Below are positions 962-9,472 of a stretch of 33,219 nt of DNA, one piece after another. The notes under the pieces are model-generated. The model was not told the DNA's origin. It worked only from the letters and a program-made list of their open reading frames with translations, and made no database searches. A program made the translations under genes and the position numbers. Positions within the stretch are counted from its first letter, which is position 1. The number at the start of each line of letters is the position of its first letter. The DNA is from Cypionkella sp. (lineage in GTDB: Bacteria; Pseudomonadota; Alphaproteobacteria; Rhodobacterales; Rhodobacteraceae), in the NCBI GenBank assembly GCA_025458525.1, contig JALOSF010000059.1, forward strand, positions 1 to 33,219, read 5' to 3'.

Positions 962-2728
962 TCAGTTTGCAGCGGCAAGCTGTTTGGGCAGGCGGAAGGT
1001 CCAGAGCGTGCCGCCCTGGTTCAGGTAGTTGACCTTCTTGGCCACCTCGCCGCCCCAAAGCGGAACAGCACCCCCCCAGCCCGAGATGACCGAGACATAT
1101 TGTTCGCCATCCTGTTCCCAGGTGATCGGCTGACCCACGATGCCCGACCCGGTCTGGAACGACCACAGGACTTCGCCCGTGGCATCATCCAGCGCAAGGA
1201 ACTCGCCTTCCGGCGTGCCCGTGAACACCAGACCGCCTGCCGTGGTCATCACGCCGCCCCAAAGCGGTGCCTCGTTCTTGTATTCCCACTTCCATTCGCC
1301 GGTCATGGGATCGATCGCCTTCAGGCTGCCGATATGGTCCTCGTAATTGGGCTTGATGGTAAAGCCCGACCCAAGATAGGCGGCGCCCTTCTTGTAGGTG
1401 ACAGGCTCGTTCCAGATGTCCATGCCCCATTCGTTCGACGGGACGTAGAACAGGCCGGTGTTCTGGCTATAGGCCATCGGCATCCAGTTCTTGCCGCCAA
1501 GAAAGGACGGCGACGAGAACACCATTTCCCCCTTGGCCCCATCGGCGGCCTTGGCCGGATCGCCGGGACGGTTTTCCTCGACAAAGATCGGGCGCCCGGT
1601 GTCGTCGATCCCGCTGGCCCAGGTGATGTCCTTCACAAAGGGCCAGGCATCGACAAAGGACCCGTCCTCGCGGTTCAGCACATAGAAGAACCCGTTGCGG
1701 TCGGCCGTCGCAAACTTCTTGTTGCCGTCCTTGTCCACAAAGGCCACGACCTCGTTCACGCCGTCATAATCCCAGCCTTCGCGCGGGGTGGTCTGGAAGT
1801 GCCACTTGATCTCGCCCGTGGCGGGGTCCATCCCGATGCGGCTGGCGGCATAGAGGTTGTCGCCGACATTGCCTTCGGTCGGGGTGCCCGCGTTGCGCAG
1901 ATGGCTGTTCCATGGCGCAGGGTTGCCGGCGCCAAAGACGATGGTGTTGGTGTCGGCATCATAAGACCCGCCAAGCCAGGTTGCCCCGCCGCCCGTTTTC
2001 CACAGATCGCCCGGCCATGTGGCGTTTAGCGTGCCGGTCATGGTGCTTTCCTTGCCGTTCAGGGTGCCCATGTGGCCTTCGATCACCGGACGGGTCCAGA
2101 CGGTTTCGCCGGTCAGCGCATCGCGAGCCTGCACCTCACCCACGATCCCGAACTCGCCGCCCGAATTGCCGGTGATGACCAGACCGTTCACGATCAGCGG
2201 GGCGGCGGTATAGGAATAGCCTTCCTTGTATTCGGCGATCTTCTTGTTCCAGACCACATCGCCGGTCTTGAGGTTCAGCGCCACGATGCGGGCATCCAGC
2301 GTGCCGAAATAGATGTTGTCGCCATAGATCGCGCCGCCGCGGTTGATCACGTCGCAGCAGGGCAGGATGCCTTCGGGAAGGCGGGCGTCGTATTGCCAGA
2401 CCTCTTTGCCGGTCTTGATGTCGATCGCATACATCCGGCTGTAGGATCCGGTGATATACATCATCCCGTCATGCACCAGCGGCTGGGTTTCCTGCCCGCG
2501 CTGCTTTTCGCCGCCAAGGCTGAAGGCCCAGGCCGGAAGCAGGTTCTTGACGTTGTCCTTGTTCAGCGTGGTCAGCGGGCTGAAGCGTTGCAGATCGCGG
2601 CCCATGCCGTTTGTCAGCACGTCACCCGTGGTGACAGCGTCAGTTGCAAGCTGCTCCTCCGTTACCTCGGCAAAGGCCGGAACGGCGGCAACCAGTGCGG
2701 CCGTCACGGCCACGATAAAGCGGTTCAT
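962..2728 (-). CDS. PQQ-dependent alcohol dehydrogenase, lanthanide-type (ExaF/PedH-like)
   Basis: Periplasmic quinoprotein of 588 residues that oxidises primary alcohols (probably ethanol or similar) and passes electrons to a cytochrome c. A signal peptide ends near AFA (about residue 19). The eight-bladed propeller carries the vicinal disulfide C124-C125 of the PQQ pocket, the metal-ligand Glu in GGEFG, an Asn in GNPAPWN, and the catalytic Asp in W319-D320-Y321-D322. The extra Asp two residues after the catalytic one is the known mark of lanthanide-dependent XoxF/ExaF/PedH enzymes; calcium enzymes have Ala, Ser or Thr there. The GEFGIVG sequence is nearer to ExaF-type ethanol dehydrogenases than to XoxF (GEFGVRG). 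The start at 2728 is chosen for the GGAGGAAA ribosome site seven bases upstream and the immediate signal peptide. The gene is monocistronic, downstream of the cytochrome gene, with a terminator between them. Confidence 0.93.
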
Positions 2729-2815
2729 CTGTTTCCTCCCAAGGATGATGCCGACAAGACCGCAGCGACTCGCCCCCTCCTGCGGGAAGCTCTGGTCATC
2801 CGGTATCTTGGGCCG

Positions 2816-2833: not shown

Positions 2834-2842
2834 ATTGAACAA

Positions 2843-2852
2843 TGGTCGTAGG
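2843..2852 (-). promoter_or_regulatory. Shared motif CCTACGACCA, copy A
   Basis: The minus-strand motif CCTACGACCA lies 115 bp upstream of the PQQ dehydrogenase start. Identical or near-identical copies, in the same orientation relative to the gene, lie upstream of the cytochrome c gene (3438-3447) and the Sel1-repeat gene (7044-7052). Alcohol-oxidation regulons in other bacteria are often run by LuxR-type response regulators (ExaE/AgmR/ErbR, FlhR). Assigning this motif to such a regulator is inference. Confidence 0.5.
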
Positions 2853-2892
2853 ACGGGCAAAGGCGGCCGGACAAACCCTCCACCATGCCCGG

Positions 2893-2920
2893 AAAATGGG
2901 GGGCGCGTCCTCCGCCCCCC
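2893..2920 (-). terminator. Intrinsic terminator after the cytochrome c gene
   Basis: An eight-bp GC stem (2898-2905 with 2913-2920) and a seven-base loop are followed on the minus strand by ATTTT. It sits 20 bp after the cytochrome stop codon and separates that transcript from the dehydrogenase promoter. Confidence 0.65.
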
Positions 2921-2940
2921 TTGACAGCAAAATGCTGCGG

Positions 2941-3342
2941 TTACTTGGGTTGCACCGAGCGCAGATAGGTCAGGATGAATTCCGCCTCGACCGGGTCGGT
3001 GATGCCGACATGGCGCATCTTGGTGCCGGGGATCAGCCCCTGATTGTCAGCCATCCATGCCACAAGCGCGGGCTCGGTCCAGACGATGCCCGCCTCTGAC
3101 AGGGCAGAGGAATAGGCATAGCCGGGGGCCGAACCGCTTTTGCGGCCAATTATGCCATCCAGAACAGGGCCATAACTCTTGTCGGTTGCTTCGGTGCCAT
3201 GACAGCGTCGGCAGTCGGCGTCAAAGAGCTTGGCTCCGGCTTCCAGCTTGATCCGCTCAAAGGCGGCGGTTCCGGCGGGGGCGGTTTGTGCCACGCCCGA
3301 AAGAGCAAGGGCAAGGCAGCACAGCAGCATGCGGGGGGGCAT
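2941..3342 (-). CDS. Class I cytochrome c, probable electron acceptor of the PQQ dehydrogenase
   Basis: Secreted 133-residue monoheme cytochrome. It has a signal peptide (about residues 1-23), the heme-binding C44-x-x-C47-H48 and a likely axial Met109 in GTKMRHVG. The spacing and the segment around [17 protein letters not shown] are typical of the c2/c550 (mitochondrial-like) class. Of two in-frame ATGs six bases apart, 3342 is preferred because GAGGAG sits at proper spacing before it and would abut the one at 3348. It lies directly upstream of the PQQ dehydrogenase, as cytochromes c550 often do (exaB, pedF, xoxG). Its own terminator and two upstream regulatory sites (FnrL-like box and shared motif B) show it is a separate transcript. 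The partner role is inferred from position. Confidence 0.88.
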
Positions 3343-3407
3343 TGTCATCTCCTCAAGGTGGGTGCGCAGGTGCCCACCAGCCATGCGCGCACCCGGATTG
3401 CCGGGCC

Positions 3408-3421
3408 TTGACCTGCATCAA
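3408..3421. promoter_or_regulatory. FnrL/Crp-family box upstream of cytochrome c
   Basis: TTGAC-CTGC-ATCAA matches the FNR-type consensus TTGAT-N4-ATCAA with one deviation that is common in Rhodobacteraceae FnrL sites. Its centre is about 72 bp upstream of the cytochrome start codon, a position compatible with activation. It suggests oxygen (or NO, if an Nnr/Dnr protein binds) control of the cytochrome. Confidence 0.6.
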
Positions 3422-3437
3422 GCCTTGCCTTGTGCTT

Positions 3438-3447
3438 TGGTCGTAGG
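3438..3447 (-). promoter_or_regulatory. Shared motif CCTACGACCA, copy B
   Basis: Ten bases identical to copy A, 96 bp upstream of the cytochrome c start on the same strand and 17 bp upstream of the FnrL-like box. The flanks resemble copy C: GGCAG before the motif and AGC after it. Confidence 0.5.
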
Positions 3448-3465
3448 CCCTGCCCTGCCCGGTCG

Positions 3466-4632
3466 TCAGATGCGGTCGCCAAGACCCCGCGCCACCAGAT
3501 TGCGCACAAGGGCCGTGGTGCCAAAGGTCCATTCCGGGCAACGGTCGGTGCGTTCGACCCAGTTCACCAGCCGACCAAGCCGGGGCGAGGCGATCTCGAC
3601 CCGGTCGCCGGTTTCGTGGGTAAAGCCCAGCCCCACGCCGCGCCGGTCCTTGACCGGGGCGAACATGGTGCCCAGAAACAGCACCACCCCATCGGGGTAT
3701 TGATGCGAGCGGTTGAGCAACTGGGCCACCAGATCCGCCGGCTTGCGGCTGATCGCGTGCAGCGGGCTTTCGCCGGTCATGTCGAAACCGTCCTGCCCCG
3801 TGACGTGCAGCGACACCGTCTCCTGCTCCAGATCCGCCAATGTGAAGCGGTCGTCCAGCAGCCGGATGAACGGGCCAAGCGCGCAAGACGCGTTGTTGTC
3901 CTTGGCCTTGCCCAGCAGCAGGGCCGAGCGCCCCTCGACATCCCGAAGGTTCACGTCATTGCCCAGGGTCGCGCCGAGGATGGTCCCATCCGACCGGACG
4001 ACCAGCACCACCTCTGGTTCCGGGTTGTTCCAATCCGAGATCGGGTGAATCCCCACCAGATCGCCGCAGCCGACCGAAGCCATCGGCTGCGCCTTGGTGA
4101 AGATTTCGGCATCGGGCCCGATCCCCACTTCCAGATACTGCGACCACAGGTTCATCTCTTGCAGCAGCGCCTTGACCTCGGCCGCTTTTTGCGACCCTGC
4201 GGCAACGCCGCGCAGACTGTCCCCGATCACCGGGGCAAGGCGGGCGCGAAGGTCGGCGGCACGCGCGCTGTCGCCGCGGGCCTGTTCCTCGATCACGCGC
4301 TCCAGCATGCTGCCCGCAAAGGTGACACCCGCGGCCTTGACCGACTGAAGGTCGATCGGGGCAAGCAGCCGCCCGGCGCTGCCGTCCAGAAAGCGGTCCA
4401 GCGGCCCCAGATCCGGCAGGTCGGGGCGCGTGACCAGCTGGGCCAGATCGGCGCGCTCCAGCAGGCCCGACATCGTGGCCGCGATGGCGGACAGATCAAG
4501 CACCCGCCCCCCGCGCAGCACCACCGGGCAAGGCCCGCCCTGTGCGTCGGACCACACCCGACCCAAAAGCAGGGCTGTGTCGGCATCTGTCGGCAGAATT
4601 TCGGCAGCGGTCAGGGCGGTTTGCGGTGTCAC
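3466..4632 (-). CDS. Fumarylacetoacetate hydrolase-fold enzyme, XylX/AraD1-like
   Basis: Cytoplasmic enzyme of about 388 residues. The C-terminal two thirds is an FAH-fold catalytic domain, with metal-ligand acidic residues in the segments SDWNNPEPEVVLVV and GNDVNLRDVEG. The N-terminal part (TALLLGRVW...VVLRGGRVLDLS) matches the longer FAH members that dehydrate 2-keto-3-deoxy sugar acids (XylX, AraD1) rather than the short acylpyruvases. The substrate is not determined here. I prefer a GTG start at 4632, which has GGAGG eight bases upstream; an ATG at 4650 would add six residues that overlap that ribosome site. It sits between the PQQ/cytochrome genes and a divergent transporter, which hints at a link with oxidation of alcohols or sugars. 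That link is inference. Confidence 0.82.
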   Translation of the reverse strand: MTPQTALTAAEILPTDADTALLLGRVWSDAQGGPCPVVLRGGRVLDLSAIAATMSGLLERADLAQLVTRPDLPDLGPLDRFLDGSAGRLLAPIDLQSVKAAGVTFAGSMLERVIEEQARGDSARAADLRARLAPVIGDSLRGVAAGSQKAAEVKALLQEMNLWSQYLEVGIGPDAEIFTKAQPMASVGCGDLVGIHPISDWNNPEPEVVLVVRSDGTILGATLGNDVNLRDVEGRSALLLGKAKDNNASCALGPFIRLLDDRFTLADLEQETVSLHVTGQDGFDMTGESPLHAISRKPADLVAQLLNRSHQYPDGVVLFLGTMFAPVKDRRGVGLGFTHETGDRVEIASPRLGRLVNWVERTDRCPEWTFGTTALVRNLVARGLGDRI

Positions 4633-4847
4633 GTCATTTTCCTCCGGCATCAGGTCCGCCCCGTTGGCACGGCGCATGGGCGGCCAGCTCTTGTGCTGAC
4701 GAGGGTGTAACGGCGCGCGGCCCCGCCTGTCCAGCCCTGCCTGACTTGCCGCCGCGGGGCCGCCGGGGCCACCCTCTGCGCCTTTGGTCGGATTTCGGGA
4801 ATCCCTCAGCCTGCTATGGTCAGTCATGCTTTCGGGGAGGAAAGACC

Positions 4848-5822
4848 ATGAGCCTTTTGCGCACCATCCGCCTGTCTGCGGTGGCAACGATCCTTGGCCT
4901 GTCTGCCGCGCAGGCAGAGCCGACACCGCTTCGCATCGCGACCCAGGTCAGCGGAACGGTGAACTGGGAACTGACAACGATCGCAAGCCGAGGGCTTGAT
5001 GTGGCAAACGGCTTTACGATGGTGGTGCAGGATGTGGCCGCCGGGCCTGCCGCGCAACTGGCGTTTCAGGCCGGAGAAGCGGATGTGATCGTGTCGGACT
5101 GGCTTTGGGTCGCGCGGGAACGCGCGGCAGGTCAGGATTATGTCTTTATCCCCTATTCCCGCGCGGTGGGGGCCCTGCATGTGCCAAAGGACAGCCCGGC
5201 ACAATCGCTGACCGATCTTAAGGGAGGGCAGATCGGAATCGCCGGGGGGCCGATCGACAAAAGCTGGCTGATCCTGCGCGCCTATGCCCAGCAGGAAGCG
5301 GGCTTCGACATCGCGGCCGAGACGGAGCAGGTGTTCGGCGCGCCGCCCCTGATCTTTGAAACCGCGGTGGCGGGCGATCTGGATGCGGCGGTCAATTTCT
5401 GGCACTTCGGCGCCAAGATGGAGGCGGCGGGGATGCGCCCGCTCATCACCGTGGCCGAGGCGGCGGCGGCCCTTGGGCTTGATCCGCAGACCCCGCTTCT
5501 GGGCTATGTGGTGCGCGGCCAGATGCTGCGTGACACCCCCGAACTGGTGGCGGGCCTTGCCGCGGCAAGCCGGGGGGCCAAAGAGATTCTGGCGCAGGAC
5601 GACACGGCATGGGAGGCGTTGCGCCCGATCATGAACGCCAAATCCGACGCCCAGTTTACCGCGCTCGTCGCAGGGTTTCGCGCCGGTATTCCCGCACCCG
5701 GAGCGGTGGATGAGGCCGCAGCACAACGCATGCTGACGCTGATGGCACAGCTGGGGGGCGAGGAGCTTGTCGGCAAGATGACGGATCTGCCCGCAGGTGT
5801 TTTCGTCCAGCCGGAAAGCTGA
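4848..5822 (+). CDS. NMT1/SsuA-like ABC transporter substrate-binding protein
   Basis: Periplasmic protein of 324 residues. A signal peptide ends at AQA (about residue 23) and is followed by LRIATQVSGTVNWELTTIAS, the first strand and helix of the SsuA/ThiY/NMT1 (type II) binding fold; ADVIVSDWLWVAR is the usual ligand-pocket strand. A strong ribosome site (GGGGAGG) lies before the ATG at 4848. The stop overlaps the start of the ATPase gene (TGATG), so the two are translationally coupled. Unusually no permease gene lies between or after them. Relatives bind sulfonates, nitrate, thiamine precursors or aromatic compounds; the ligand here is unknown. Being next to PQQ-dehydrogenase genes, it could serve alcohol or acid uptake or signalling, as XoxJ-type binding proteins are proposed to do. 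Confidence 0.85.
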   Translation: MSLLRTIRLSAVATILGLSAAQAEPTPLRIATQVSGTVNWELTTIASRGLDVANGFTMVVQDVAAGPAAQLAFQAGEADVIVSDWLWVARERAAGQDYVFIPYSRAVGALHVPKDSPAQSLTDLKGGQIGIAGGPIDKSWLILRAYAQQEAGFDIAAETEQVFGAPPLIFETAVAGDLDAAVNFWHFGAKMEAAGMRPLITVAEAAAALGLDPQTPLLGYVVRGQMLRDTPELVAGLAAASRGAKEILAQDDTAWEALRPIMNAKSDAQFTALVAGFRAGIPAPGAVDEAAAQRMLTLMAQLGGEELVGKMTDLPAGVFVQPES

Positions 5823-6427
5823 TGACCTTCGCGCTGTCCCTTGATCTGGAACAGGCAAGCCATGGCAAGGTCCCGATCCTCGGGGCCTTGTCCTTGCGGG
5901 TCAAGGCGGGCGAGACGGTGGCCATCACGGGGCCGTCAGGGGTGGGAAAATCCACATTGCTGCGAGTGATTGCCGGCCTGCATGTCGGCTGGACCGGCAC
6001 GCTTGATCTGAGCGGGCGGGTGGCAATGGTGTTTCAGGAACCCGTGTTGATGCCATGGCGCAGTGCGCTGGAAAACATCTGCCTGCCTGCGCAATGCAGC
6101 CCGGCACAGGCCCGGGCAGCACTTGCCTCGGTCGATCTGGCAGACAAGGCGGAATCGTTCCCCGATGCCCTGTCGCTGGGCCAGCAGCGGCGGCTGTCGC
6201 TGGCGCGGGCCTTTGCGGCAGAGCCGGACGTCCTCTTGCTGGATGAGGCCTTTGTTTCGCTGGATGCGGTCTTGGCAGACGAAATGATGGCGCTGTTCGA
6301 ACGGCTGCGCGCGCATCGGACCCTTGCCACGGTCCTTGTCACCCATGACAAGGCCGAGGCCGCGCGGCTTGCCAGCCGCATCGTGGTGCTTGCAGGGAAA
6401 CCCGCGCGCCTTGTGCAGGTGGATTAG
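5822..6427 (+). CDS. ABC transporter ATP-binding protein (NitT/TauT/SsuB type)
   Basis: Compact 201-residue ATPase. Walker A is GPSGVGKST (residues 37-45), followed by a Q-loop in VAMVFQEPVLMPW, a signature motif reading LSLGQQRR instead of LSGGQ, Walker B DVLLLDEAF (D141, E142), and a switch His in VLVTHD. It fits the SsuB/TauB/NrtD class, which partners with the NMT1-like protein encoded immediately upstream; the start codon overlaps the stop of that gene. It is shorter than the usual ~250-260 residues, lacking most of the C-terminal extension. The 3' end overlaps the convergent Sel1-repeat gene by four bases, so there is no room for a permease in this operon. Confidence 0.88.
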   Translation: MTFALSLDLEQASHGKVPILGALSLRVKAGETVAITGPSGVGKSTLLRVIAGLHVGWTGTLDLSGRVAMVFQEPVLMPWRSALENICLPAQCSPAQARAALASVDLADKAESFPDALSLGQQRRLSLARAFAAEPDVLLLDEAFVSLDAVLADEMMALFERLRAHRTLATVLVTHDKAEAARLASRIVVLAGKPARLVQVD

Positions 6428-6969
6428 AACAGCGGCGCGTATTTCCAGGTGTCGGCGTCCGGCGTCACCTCGTCCAGATCATAGCCTGCCGATTGCAGGC
6501 GCCGTGCCACCGGCAGGCCAAGGGCTGCGGCGCGGTCGATCATCTGGCGACCGGCCTCGACGTCCTGCGCGATGCCGCGCCCGCGCATCATGTCCAGCCC
6601 ATGATTGAACATGCCGACCGGATCACCAAGTTCGGCCGCGCGCTTGTCCCATTGTGCCGCGGCGTCGGGGTTTTCCGGCGCGCCAAGGCCATTGTCGTCA
6701 AGCTGCGACATCCAGGTCATCGCGGCGGTGTAACCCGCGTCCGCGCAGCGTTCAAACACCTCACGCGCGGCGGCGTGGCGACCTGATTTTGTCATCAGAT
6801 ACCCCGAAGCACAGACCGACATCGACGTCTTGCCCTGCCCCGCATCCTCGACCATGCGGCCCAGGCTCATTTCGTCGGGGTTGAGGCTGCCGTAGCTTTC
6901 CTGTTCCGCCAAGGCCGGCGACAGCAGGATTGCGCCCAGAAGCGCTCCCAGAGGCAGAACATGTGACAT
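6424..6969 (-). CDS. Secreted Sel1-repeat protein
   Basis: A protein of 181 residues with a signal peptide (cleavage near ALA-EQ, about residue 22). Two Sel1-like (TPR-related) repeats follow: AAMTWMSQLDDNGLGAPENP... and PVGMFNHGLDMMRGRGIAQD.... The preceding helical pair (ASGYLMTKSGRHAAAREVFERCADAG) looks like a degenerate first repeat. Such proteins act as periplasmic protein-interaction scaffolds; no enzymatic role is visible. It has its own copy of the CCTACGACCA motif 75 bp upstream, linking it to the PQQ dehydrogenase and cytochrome genes. The start at 6969 has AAGGGA upstream and begins the signal peptide. Its function is unknown. Confidence 0.8.
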   Translation of the reverse strand: MSHVLPLGALLGAILLSPALAEQESYGSLNPDEMSLGRMVEDAGQGKTSMSVCASGYLMTKSGRHAAAREVFERCADAGYTAAMTWMSQLDDNGLGAPENPDAAAQWDKRAAELGDPVGMFNHGLDMMRGRGIAQDVEAGRQMIDRAAALGLPVARRLQSAGYDLDEVTPDADTWKYAPLF

Positions 6970-7043
6970 GGCGGTCCCTTCGGCCAAGGCTGCGCGAACA
7001 GCCACCAGCCTGCCGTCCTTAGGCCCGCAGGGCAAGCGCGCTG

Positions 7044-7052
7044 TGGTCGTAG
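7044..7052 (-). promoter_or_regulatory. Shared motif CTACGACCA, copy C
   Basis: Nine bases identical to copies A and B (the first C is replaced by A), 75 bp upstream of the Sel1-repeat gene and in the same orientation. The wider context (GGCAGA before, CAGC after) resembles copy B. Confidence 0.45.
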
Positions 7053-7064
7053 TCTGCCCCCTTG

Positions 7065-7450: not shown

Positions 7451-8356
7451 CTAGGGATCGGCCGGGTCTGGCAGGCCGGGCGCCTTTTGCAAGATGGAAA
7501 GCAAGGCAAGGGTCGCGCGTGACGGATGGCGGCGCGGATCCCGAATGGCCCGGAAGCTGCGCGCCGGAAGGGCGATGTCCACCTCGCGCAGCGCGCCGCC
7601 GGGCCGCGCCCCAATTGCCCGGCGCGACAAAACAGTGGCCGCGGCCCCGGCCTCGGCTGCGGCGATGCAAGCCTCGTTCGACGGCAGGTCCAGCACCACG
7701 CGCAAGGCCGCCGGATCCATCCCGAGCGTTGTCAGGTGCCGTTCGAATTCGGACCGCGTGCCAGACCCGCGCTCGCGCAGGATCCAGCTGCTGCCGAGCA
7801 GATCGGCGGCAGACACCGGCCCCCCCGCATGCCAAGGGTGCCGGGGGCCGACAAAAACCGACATCTGGTCCGAAGCAAGGCTGATCACCTCAAACTCCGT
7901 TTCGGAAAAGGCGCCTTCGACGACCCCAAGGTCAACCACACCACTGGCCACATCGCGCACAACGGTTTCGGTGTTCCCCGCCGACAGGTGCAGATCGACG
8001 GCCGGATAGGCGTCGTGAAAGGCCATGAGCCGCGACGGCAGCCAATAGCTGGCCACCGTCTGGCTGGCGGCAAGATGCAAGCTGCCGCTTGGCCCGCCGG
8101 TCAGGTCGCGTAGCAGACCTTCGGCCTCGGTCGCGCGCGACAAGACGGCCTCGGCTGCCGCCACAAAGCGTCGCCCCGCCGCGGTAAGCTCGATGCCGCG
8201 CCCGATCCGATTGAACAGAAGGACATCATGCCGCTGTTCCAACGCGGTGATCGCCGCGCTGACCGCCGATTGGGTCAGGTTCAACCGGGCCGCCGCCCGG
8301 GTCACATGCTCGCATCGGGCCACTTCGACAAAGATGCGCAGTTGATCCAGGGTCAA
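7451..8356 (-). CDS. LysR-family regulator divergent from yeiH-like gene
   Basis: A regulator of 301 residues. The winged helix-turn-helix lies near residues 15-40 (TRAAARLNLTQSAVSAAITALE) and the C-terminal part is a two-subdomain effector domain. It is divergent from the YeiH/UPF0324 membrane protein, the same arrangement as yeiE-yeiH in enterobacteria, where YeiE is tied to sulfite response. A role controlling its neighbour is therefore likely. The start is TTG at 8356, as the nearby ATG (8359-8361) is out of frame and stops at once. AAGG lies eight bases upstream of the TTG. Confidence 0.88.
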   Translation of the reverse strand: MTLDQLRIFVEVARCEHVTRAAARLNLTQSAVSAAITALEQRHDVLLFNRIGRGIELTAAGRRFVAAAEAVLSRATEAEGLLRDLTGGPSGSLHLAASQTVASYWLPSRLMAFHDAYPAVDLHLSAGNTETVVRDVASGVVDLGVVEGAFSETEFEVISLASDQMSVFVGPRHPWHAGGPVSAADLLGSSWILRERGSGTRSEFERHLTTLGMDPAALRVVLDLPSNEACIAAAEAGAAATVLSRRAIGARPGGALREVDIALPARSFRAIRDPRRHPSRATLALLSILQKAPGLPDPADP

Positions 8357-8452
8357 TTCATCGCCTTAGTCGATTGTATCAAGAAATATTATTCGTTTTC
8401 TTTCATCAAAAGACAAGGCCATAGCGGGGGGAGATCTTGCCAGAGGCCTCCC
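8357..8452. promoter_or_regulatory. Divergent AT-rich promoter region with imperfect inverted repeat
   Basis: This 96-bp interval is strikingly AT-rich (around 8376-8412) compared with its surroundings. It contains AAGAAA (8381-8386) facing TTTCTT (8397-8402) with a ten-base spacer. A LysR regulator normally binds such a dyad between itself and its target, so this is the likely operator for both genes. Confidence 0.45.
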
Positions 8453-9472
8453 ATGCCACGACCTGCCCTTTCCCTGCCCAGCACCCTGTTGCCGAAGGTT
8501 CCCATTGCTGGCCTGGTGCTGCCTTGTGCGGTCACGGCCGTTGCGTTGGTGGTGCACCGGCTCCCCGGATTTGAACGTGTCAGCCCGATGATGCTTGCGA
8601 TCCTGCTGGGGATCGTGCTGCGCAACAGCCTGCCGCTGCCCGCGGCGGCCCTGTCGGGAACCGGGTTTCTGGTGCGCCACGCCCTGCGGCTTGGCATCGT
8701 CCTTCTGGGCATCCGACTGACGCTTGGCGACATCACGGGTCTTGGCGCCGTGACGATGGGGATCGTGGTTGCCTGTGTTGTCGGAACATATCTTGCCACG
8801 CTTGCAGCTGGCCGGATGCTGGGGGTGGACCGCAACCTTGCGCAGCTGATCGCGGCAGGCTGTTCGATCTGCGGCGCGTCGGCGATCGTGGCAATCCATG
8901 CCGTGCGCCGCGGGCCAGAGGCCGATCTGGCCTATGCGATCGCCAGCGTGACCCTGTTCGGCACGATTGCGATGATCAGCTATCCGCTGCTGGCCCTGCC
9001 CCTTGGTCTTGATGCCACCGCCTATGGCATCTGGACCGGGGCCAGCATCCACGAGGTCGCGCAAGTGACTGCCGCCGCCTATCAGCACAGCGAGACGGCG
9101 GGCAGCGTGGCGACCGTGACCAAGCTGGGCCGTGTCGCGCTTTTGGTGCCGGTTGCACTTGGCGTGGCGCTTGCGATGCGGCTTGGCGCCCGGGGCGGCG
9201 ATGAACCGGCAGGCAAGGCGCCGGTGCCCTGGTTCGTGCTTGGCTTTTTGGCCGTTGTCACGCTCAACAGCGTCCTGAACATTCCCGCACGGCTTGGCAG
9301 CGCGATGCAGGTGCTTTCCGAGGTGCTTCTTGTTCTGGGCCTGGCTGCGGCCGGATTGCAGGCGCATCTGGCCAGCCTGCTAAAGGTGGGGCTGCGGCCC
9401 GTGGCGCTGGCCATCTTTGCGTCAGCCTTCATAGCCGCGTTGTCGCTGGGGCTTGTCAAGGCACTGCTTTGA
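8453..9472 (+). CDS. YeiH/UPF0324 family membrane protein, putative sulfate/sulfite exporter
   Basis: Integral membrane protein of 339 residues with about nine or ten hydrophobic helices. Family hallmarks are the segment LIAAGCSICGASAIVAI (a Cys-rich glycine-containing pocket) and the GIWTGASIHEVAQVTAAA motif. The family is annotated as a putative sulfate exporter; direct proof of substrate is lacking. The ATG at 8453 is the first in frame after the divergent promoter and has only a weak ribosome site (AGAGG). It is probably controlled by the adjacent LysR protein. Confidence 0.85.
   Translation: MPRPALSLPSTLLPKVPIAGLVLPCAVTAVALVVHRLPGFERVSPMMLAILLGIVLRNSLPLPAAALSGTGFLVRHALRLGIVLLGIRLTLGDITGLGAVTMGIVVACVVGTYLATLAAGRMLGVDRNLAQLIAAGCSICGASAIVAIHAVRRGPEADLAYAIASVTLFGTIAMISYPLLALPLGLDATAYGIWTGASIHEVAQVTAAAYQHSETAGSVATVTKLGRVALLVPVALGVALAMRLGARGGDEPAGKAPVPWFVLGFLAVVTLNSVLNIPARLGSAMQVLSEVLLVLGLAAAGLQAHLASLLKVGLRPVALAIFASAFIAALSLGLVKALL

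Follow-up and report, generated by a model that had tools for sequence, protein, structure and literature searches.

Described relatives of the system presented here include those of Pseudomonas: in P. fluorescens, CrbR activates acs via a 17-bp imperfect inverted repeat, TACTACCATCGTCGAAT, located at -52 to -36 (PMC5715377); ErdR is the same protein as CrbR (PMC8402216), and in P. aeruginosa a cluster of 17 ethanol genes, exaA among them, depends on ErdR for its expression (PMC8546858). Here, we describe a repeated element in a 33,219-nucleotide stretch of Cypionkella sp. DNA ("the window", which is the entire contig C108 of a 3.43 Mb genome in 197 contigs), where an earlier note had reported a repeated 10-mer upstream of the genes for a pyrroloquinoline quinone (PQQ) dehydrogenase, its cytochrome c and a Sel1-repeat protein. 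The meaningful unit is a longer dyad, of which the 10-mer is the left part only, and we consider it probable (about 0.82) that the repeats are bound by a single LuxR/NarL-type response regulator, one of the ErdR(CrbR)/AgmR/FlhR kind, which would switch on a periplasmic alcohol-oxidation regulon. We have directly observed the conservation of the site, its position, its register with the -10 element, the link with the regulator genes and the likeness to the published CrbR site. The sites and their companion elements are the following, with scores from the 17-bp matrix that is introduced below:

2834 to 2850, minus strand: site A, TACGACCATTGTTCAAT, before the PQQ dehydrogenase gene (29.7 bits, the best match of the window, site A itself being among the 80 sites used to build the matrix)
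2802 to 2809, minus strand: candidate -10 element of the dehydrogenase promoter, AAGATACC, read from the sequence
3429 to 3445, minus strand: site B, TACGACCAAAGCACAAG, upstream of the cytochrome c gene (14.2 bits)
3408 to 3421, minus strand: FNR-like box, TTGATGCAGGTCAA, starting 24 bp past the start of site B
7035 to 7051, minus strand: site C, TACGACCACAGCGCGCT, before the Sel1 gene (4.8 bits; the left half alone matches)
7007 to 7012, minus strand: CAGGCT, at offset 40 from site C and one base off TANNNT, read against the Sel1 promoter pattern
4777 to 4792, plus strand: site D, TGCGCCTTTGGTCGGA, before the divergent transporter gene, with the promoter-proximal half kept
4815 to 4820, plus strand: TATGGT, candidate -10 element of the transporter operon (TANNNT is found at offset 40-41 in 26/29 aligned promoters, these rows having been selected for the motif)

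The copies that the earlier note had placed at 2843-2852 and 3438-3447 are present, CCTACGACCA being exact on the minus strand at both, and the third, for which the note had allowed a variant letter, is found at 7044-7053 as ACTACGACCA, matching at 9/10 positions. The spacing of 75-115 bp and the common orientation also hold, the distances being 115 bp to the dehydrogenase start (2728), 96 to that of cytochrome c (3342) and 75 to that of Sel1 (6969), all on the minus strand. Two further statements stand in part: of the flanks said to be shared by copies B and C, AGC is in register but GGCAG lies 2 bases nearer to TACGACC in copy C, and the absence of another intergenic copy is true for the exact word but not for the half-inverted version at 4777-4792. 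When at most one mismatch to the 10-mer is allowed, 5 matches are found in the window where 1.03 would be expected, and 0/100 shuffles reach 5.

Our comparison covers the best 80 of 592 dehydrogenase matches, mostly from Rhodobacteraceae and some from Rhizobiaceae; the genes of these loci were called with a simple codon-score script instead of a gene finder, and all counts take related genomes as independent, so that the p-values overstate. The matrix was built from at most 250 bp before each dehydrogenase gene in the 80 relatives and the window (n = 81), and converged using 80/81 of these upstream regions (score above 4 bits, several of them weak; locus L085 is without a site), giving a dyad of 16-17 bp with the consensus TACGACCA[TA][TG]GT[GC]CAAT. 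Exact TACGACC is present in 62/81 dehydrogenase upstream regions, and TACGACC or its complement in 69/81.

The motif is concentrated in the DNA between genes: of TACGACCA, the intergenic DNA of the 80 loci (257 kb) has 115 copies and their coding DNA (1.09 Mb) has 8, against 9 and 47 copies of the reversed word, and the motif is thus not equally common in coding DNA, the outcome by which the earlier note had proposed to refute itself. TACGACC occurs 199 times in intergenic and 97 times in coding DNA, while 200 composition-matched words average 29.9 intergenic matches (standard deviation 18.5), the control word with the most, ATGGTCG (110), overlapping the motif itself. In a gene-by-gene count of upstream regions 40 bp or longer, scored for TACGACC or its complement, the motif is kept before the same genes in relatives, in agreement with what the earlier note had anticipated: before the dehydrogenase in 64/77, the transporter's binding protein in 26/33, cytochrome c in 16/24 and Sel1 in 23/39, and also before an unnamed small gene that adjoins the dehydrogenase (10/15) and a NosR-like gene (3/7). 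All other genes together have it in 11/461 (the reversed word in 25), and it was found before none of the genes for the transporter ATPase (0/52), the kinase (0/30) and the FIST protein (0/41). The site together with a -10 element occurs 51 times between genes and 0 times in genes across the 80 loci, the reversed control giving 2 and 5; the two counts are not strictly alike, since a single coding base among its 17 was enough for a site to be taken as coding, while the control was so taken if more than half of its 46 bases were coding.

The position of the site relative to the -10 element is also conserved. Many relatives' dehydrogenase promoters have GATGAT, GATACT or ATAATG about 40-47 bp past the motif start, the element of the window being at offset 42-49; these promoters prefer xATxAT at offset 40-45, TANNNT being rare there. 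In the Sel1 promoters, TANNNT is located at offset 40-41 in 23/40 rows, which were selected for the motif and include one genome twice (L007 and L087). The transporter promoter has the dyad in its other form: site D scores -21.0 bits with the dehydrogenase-type matrix and is therefore identifiable by its other half only, CTTTGGTCGGATTTC at 4782-4796 being the sole exact match in the genome to CTTTGGTCGNATTNC (which has 72 matches with at most 2 mismatches, against 52 for the reversed pattern), and GGTCGNAT occurring in 28 orthologous transporter promoters besides that of the window, in rows chosen by that pattern. Which half of the dyad is conserved differs by gene: it is the promoter-distal one at the dehydrogenase, cytochrome c and Sel1 genes and the promoter-proximal one at the transporter, the register being nearly the same. 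In the promoters of the transporter and Sel1, the motif appears to be located directly before a predicted sigma-70-type -10 element, as in sites of the CrbR/ErdR ACTU type.

The cytochrome c promoter is arranged differently, the site being followed by the FNR-like box, whose 14-mer is identical to an R. sphaeroides recognition sequence given in the dksA2 row of PMC4634722. Many orthologous cytochrome c promoters have TACGACCAAAG sites; the box, TTGAY-N4-RTCAA, is present in 23/28 cytochrome c upstream regions (27 relatives and the window), 22/28 hold both the box and a motif-like T-A/G-CGAC site, and the 80 loci together have the box 25 times in intergenic DNA and 2 times within genes. The distance between the starts of the two elements, taken from the fitting site nearest to the box (some promoters hold more sites at other distances), is 23-24 bp in 11 promoters, 34-36 in 10 and 47 in 1; such steps, each of roughly one helical turn, suggest that two proteins share a face of the DNA. 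In the 23 aligned box rows (75 bp examined), there are 13 occurrences of TANNNT, always 36-38 bp from the box start, from which the box is predicted to centre at -41.5; the row of the window itself has no TANNNT within the 75 bp examined. Two CRP/FNR-family proteins score above cut-off in the genome, and the one encoded at L183:1456-2184, minus strand, begins with a cysteine cluster, CRSCPLRQC.

The dehydrogenase-promoter matrix, built without it, gives the CrbR acs site 20.1 bits, a score reached by 0/1,000,000 random words; among the six sites of the published CrbR table that we have scored, part of which had been tested by experiment and part of which were predictions (PMC5715377), those of acs and PFLU5314 have 20.1 bits and the four others 6.1 to 11.5. 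The genome encodes 7 GerE-domain proteins, and on contig C78 one of them is encoded in the order regulator, FIST protein (PF08495, PF10442), hybrid kinase, the kinase having PAS, HisKA, HATPase and receiver domains in Pfam. The C78 regulator, of 220 amino acids, consists of a receiver (PF00072, 75.8 bits) and a LuxR-type helix-turn-helix domain (PF00196, 72.9 bits), and ErdR is its best NCBIfam model (157.9 bits, the highest ErdR score among the 5/7 GerE proteins scored). An orthologue of at least 55% identity is present in 52/80 dehydrogenase loci; in 47/80 the regulator gene shares the strand of the dehydrogenase and has its start 149-334 bp past the dehydrogenase match, accompanied by FIST and hybrid-kinase genes, and in G014, of the same genus, it is on the same strand as the dehydrogenase gene, 1.8 kb further on. 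The common LuxR-type activator that the earlier note had suggested is therefore supported by the linkage of an ErdR/AgmR/FlhR-kind regulator with the dehydrogenase and by the match to the CrbR site, while its binding and its activating role are predictions.

We infer the identity of the binding protein, its phosphorylation, activation rather than repression and the inducing signal, as follows: the hybrid kinase and its FIST partner would sense an alcohol or aldehyde, leading to phosphorylation of the C78 regulator, which would then bind the dyad TACGACC-N2-GGTCGTA. In the promoters of the dehydrogenase, transporter and Sel1 genes, this site would take the place of the -35 element and end 22-23 bp before the -10 element, as the CrbR site does at acs, while at the cytochrome c gene, the site would act from upstream of the FNR-type box, in helical step with it, so that the gene would respond to alcohol together with low oxygen.

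Two side observations concern the dyad and the LuxR-type proteins. The rhizobial dehydrogenase promoters of L066 and L067 carry an altered dyad (GTATACCAAGGTACAC, GTGTACCAAGGTACTA), with no regulator-trio match in their loci, and an altered site specificity is possible there; and on contig C116 of this genome (G000), a LuxR protein (L120), like the autoinducer-binding family but below cut-off, is located beside what is by eye a LuxI-type synthase, the two possibly forming a quorum-sensing pair.

Several observations weigh against the proposed regulon. The C78 regulator, FIST protein and kinase all score under the curated cut-offs of the ErdR equivalog NF041830 (157.9/390), NosP (378.8/450) and the NahK C-terminal model (350.7/400), and the assignment is therefore to a kind and not to a named equivalog. 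The C78-type regulator occurs in 23/81 genomes and the dehydrogenase in 12/81 (at the E-values used), so that the regulator must have other targets, and its own promoter in this genome has, by eye, no site in the required register. Among the dehydrogenase upstream regions, 9/81 are without T-N-C/A-GACC and without GGTCGTA, some of them with near variants, and those of L066, L067, L075 and L085 have no recognisable motif variant. The exact 7-mer precedes PQQ_ABC_bind in 17/51, pedF in 14/47, coxG in 1/8 and the regulator's own gene in 4/49. Lastly, copy C is weak.

Copy C might indeed be a decayed remnant in this genome, with only sites A, B and D functional. Its 4.8 bits are to be seen against about 6.5 positions of at least 5 bits that a Markov model predicts for the window, so that it depends solely on conservation, and its -10 element has one mismatch; we nevertheless regard decay as unlikely, because TACGACC is kept before the close Sel1 orthologue in 6/6 same-genus genomes where one was found, besides the 23/39 upstream regions of the 80 loci. 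More improbable is a different LuxR-type regulator, e.g. that of contig C111 (L118), binding the sites, with the C78 trio near the dehydrogenase in relatives by coincidence: there are seven GerE proteins to choose from, the L118 regulator also matches ErdR, at a weaker 107.9 bits, and the C78-type regulator occurs in genomes without the dehydrogenase, but its place directly downstream of the dehydrogenase in 47/80 loci and, on C78, beside a coxG operon with a site of its own argues for the C78 regulator. There is very little to recommend TACGACC as a promoter element recognised directly by an RNA polymerase holoenzyme of a particular sigma factor, and not an activator site; the constant distance to the -10 element at the transporter and Sel1 promoters would fit, but the site is a dyad, its inverted half is the one kept at the transporter promoter, and the distance to the FNR-like box at cytochrome c shifts by about whole helical turns. 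A chance repeat, with which the lack of over-representation of the exact 10-mer in the genome would agree, is ruled out by the conservation across genera at the same promoters.

That genome-wide count, proposed as a check in the earlier note, has given no enrichment: there are 5 exact copies in 3.43 Mb against 21 of the reversed word, and of the 3 outside the window one is located in a tRNA-Asn gene and two in long open frames (by eye, a TRAP-transporter binding protein and argininosuccinate synthase). The 10-mer is thereby ruled out as the functional unit; by itself it is not specific, and its value as proof comes from its placement, not from the word. Searching this genome for the motif with at most 2 mismatches has yielded 88 forward and 68 reverse matches, the reversed pattern giving 83 and 94, so that mismatch scans of this one genome are uninformative. 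Of 12 among the listed matches that we have inspected, 8 are inside predicted genes (L124, L125, L126, L127, L133, L143, L144 and L148), L128 and L135 lie between genes, and L129 (coxG) and L132 (NosR-like) have been retained; a match on contig C101, which sits between convergent genes, has been dropped.

The retained matches extend the proposed regulon to two other contigs. On C78, a coxG-coxS-coxL-coxM-like operon of the molybdenum aldehyde oxidase type (L153:2787-7030) is located directly behind the kinase, its coxG promoter having TACGACTTTGGTTCCAT with TAATCT at offset 40, and a near-identical site is present in G002 and G004, both of the other genomes examined for it; coxG is rarely near the dehydrogenase in the 80 loci. 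Contig C146 (L163:6639-16274) carries pedF, PQQ_ABC_bind and genes resembling those typed in L007 as beta-propeller and Ped ABC genes, and its NosR-like gene is preceded by TGCGACCTTGGTCCAAT with TAGGCT at offset 41, the 17-mer being identical in G002; oddly, the NosR-like start codon is close to the expected transcript start. A dyad filter requiring 9/14 matches missed this NosR-like site and yielded none on C146; TGCGACCATGGTCTAAT and CGCCACGAAAGTCCAAT, between pedF and PQQ_ABC_bind, were afterwards chosen by eye with the -10 element in mind and are weak evidence, the second scoring 3.6 bits. An SsuC-like permease is located beside the ped-type cluster of C146, and L034 has such a permease between the binding protein and the ATPase; the C146 permease may be the one that is missing from the ABC transporter of the window.

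The genes that the four sites precede, with the ATPase gene of the transporter, are the following:

962 to 2728, minus strand: PQQ-dependent alcohol dehydrogenase, PedH/ExaF-like (TIGR03075, 766 bits, cut-off 480)
2941 to 3342, minus strand: c-type cytochrome with a signal-like N-terminus (PF00034)
4848 to 5822, plus strand: NMT1/SsuA-like ABC substrate-binding protein (PF09084; match in 36/80 loci)
5822 to 6427, plus strand: ABC transporter ATPase (PF00005)
6424 to 6969, minus strand: Sel1-repeat protein with an N-terminal signal-like sequence (PF08238, 29.7 bits, just below the cut-off of 30.7)

The best solved matches of the dehydrogenase are the PedH structures 6zcv and 6zcw, from Pseudomonas putida. 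Its WDYDG aligns with WDFDG of PedH, the calcium-type ExaA (1flg) having WDFSG; the second Asp of the D-Y/F-D motif marks lanthanide use, and because WDYDG carries it, the enzyme is probably a lanthanide-type PQQ alcohol dehydrogenase. The cytochrome c has tblastn matches in 29/80 loci, some of them weak and probably paralogous. Between the cytochrome c and the divergent transporter, a fumarylacetoacetate-hydrolase-like gene (3466-4653) with a match in 0/80 of the relatives' loci separates the two in this genome, each of which retains its own site. At 7451-9472, a LysR-type regulator gene (closest model YeiE, below cut-off) is divergent from that of a membrane protein that resembles YeiH by eye. 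The hydrolase, SH3 and LysR genes of the window have matches in 0, 0 and 2 of the 80 loci and have been excluded from the regulon.

The membership of Sel1 in the pathway, as put forward in the earlier note, is supported by synteny and by co-occurrence: a Sel1 gene match is near the dehydrogenase in 54/80 loci, and among 81 genomes 9 have both, 2 the dehydrogenase alone, 1 Sel1 alone (on a 4.4 kb contig) and 69 neither (p = 2e-9, uncorrected for kinship), a Sel1 match being counted at 1e-54 or below and a dehydrogenase at 80% identity or above, so that a 57% dehydrogenase in G017 and 36 genomes with only weak Sel1-repeat matches were left out. The 9 Sel1 proteins aligned share a conserved VTPDAD tail, and no paper on a link between Sel1 and PQQ enzymes was evident in our literature search. 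Tentatively, and with the balance somewhat against it, we propose that one regulator site serves two promoter geometries within the locus, adjoining the -10 element at the dehydrogenase, transporter and Sel1 genes and standing in helical step before the FNR-like box at cytochrome c, alcohol and low oxygen being combined only at the electron-acceptor gene, and that Sel1 is a dedicated component, hitherto undescribed, of the lanthanide-type dehydrogenase system.

If the proposed regulon is correct, the dyad would offer a concrete and testable DNA code by which lanthanide-type PQQ alcohol dehydrogenases are regulated in Rhodobacteraceae and Rhizobiaceae, with the Sel1 protein, the ABC transporter, the coxGSLM-like aldehyde oxidase, the NosR-like protein and possibly genes of the PedF region as likely members, and with the prediction that the cytochrome c is also under oxygen control.

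Among known systems, the present site resembles the CrbR/ErdR ACTU motif of Pseudomonas acs and actP (PMC5715377), which is likewise an inverted repeat just before an RpoD promoter and needs a LuxR-type response regulator for activation; the genes, however, serve PQQ alcohol oxidation here and acetate use there, the fourth base here is mostly G and not T, and the C78 kinase, unlike CrbS, is without an SLC5 domain in Pfam. The AgmR(ErbR)-NosP(GfdT)-NahK(PedS1) trio of the Pseudomonas ped cluster has the same content of regulator, FIST/NosP protein and hybrid kinase and is likewise associated with the genes for a PQQ alcohol dehydrogenase, PedF and the Ped transporter (PMC12997753), but the trio of the relatives is located behind the dehydrogenase, and in this genome it is followed by the coxGSLM-like operon. 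In related bacteria, FlhR-orf2-FlhS of Paracoccus and AfdRS/RfdRS of Rhodobacter sphaeroides, which concern formaldehyde and methanol oxidation, have C1 targets (PMC4776306, PMC8879981); FlhR-orf2-FlhS and AfdR-AfdT-AfdS show a similar order of regulator, open reading frame and kinase in one cluster, a likeness by description only (PMC4776306). The portions of the literature covered give no DNA site for AgmR, FlhR or AfdR (PMC12997753, PMC4776306, PMC8879981), and the open-licence literature, a scope that does not include the original AfdR/RfdR study, has no report, in its portions covered, of the present site for alcohol oxidation in Alphaproteobacteria. The FnrL sites of Rhodobacter have the same TTGAY-N4-RTCAA form as the box before cytochrome c (PMC4634722), which here, by contrast, is paired with an alcohol-regulator site at a spacing of about whole turns. 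This kind of site and of regulator is already known from acetate use in Pseudomonas, and the conserved site of the proposed alcohol-oxidation regulon described here is a variant of that kind.

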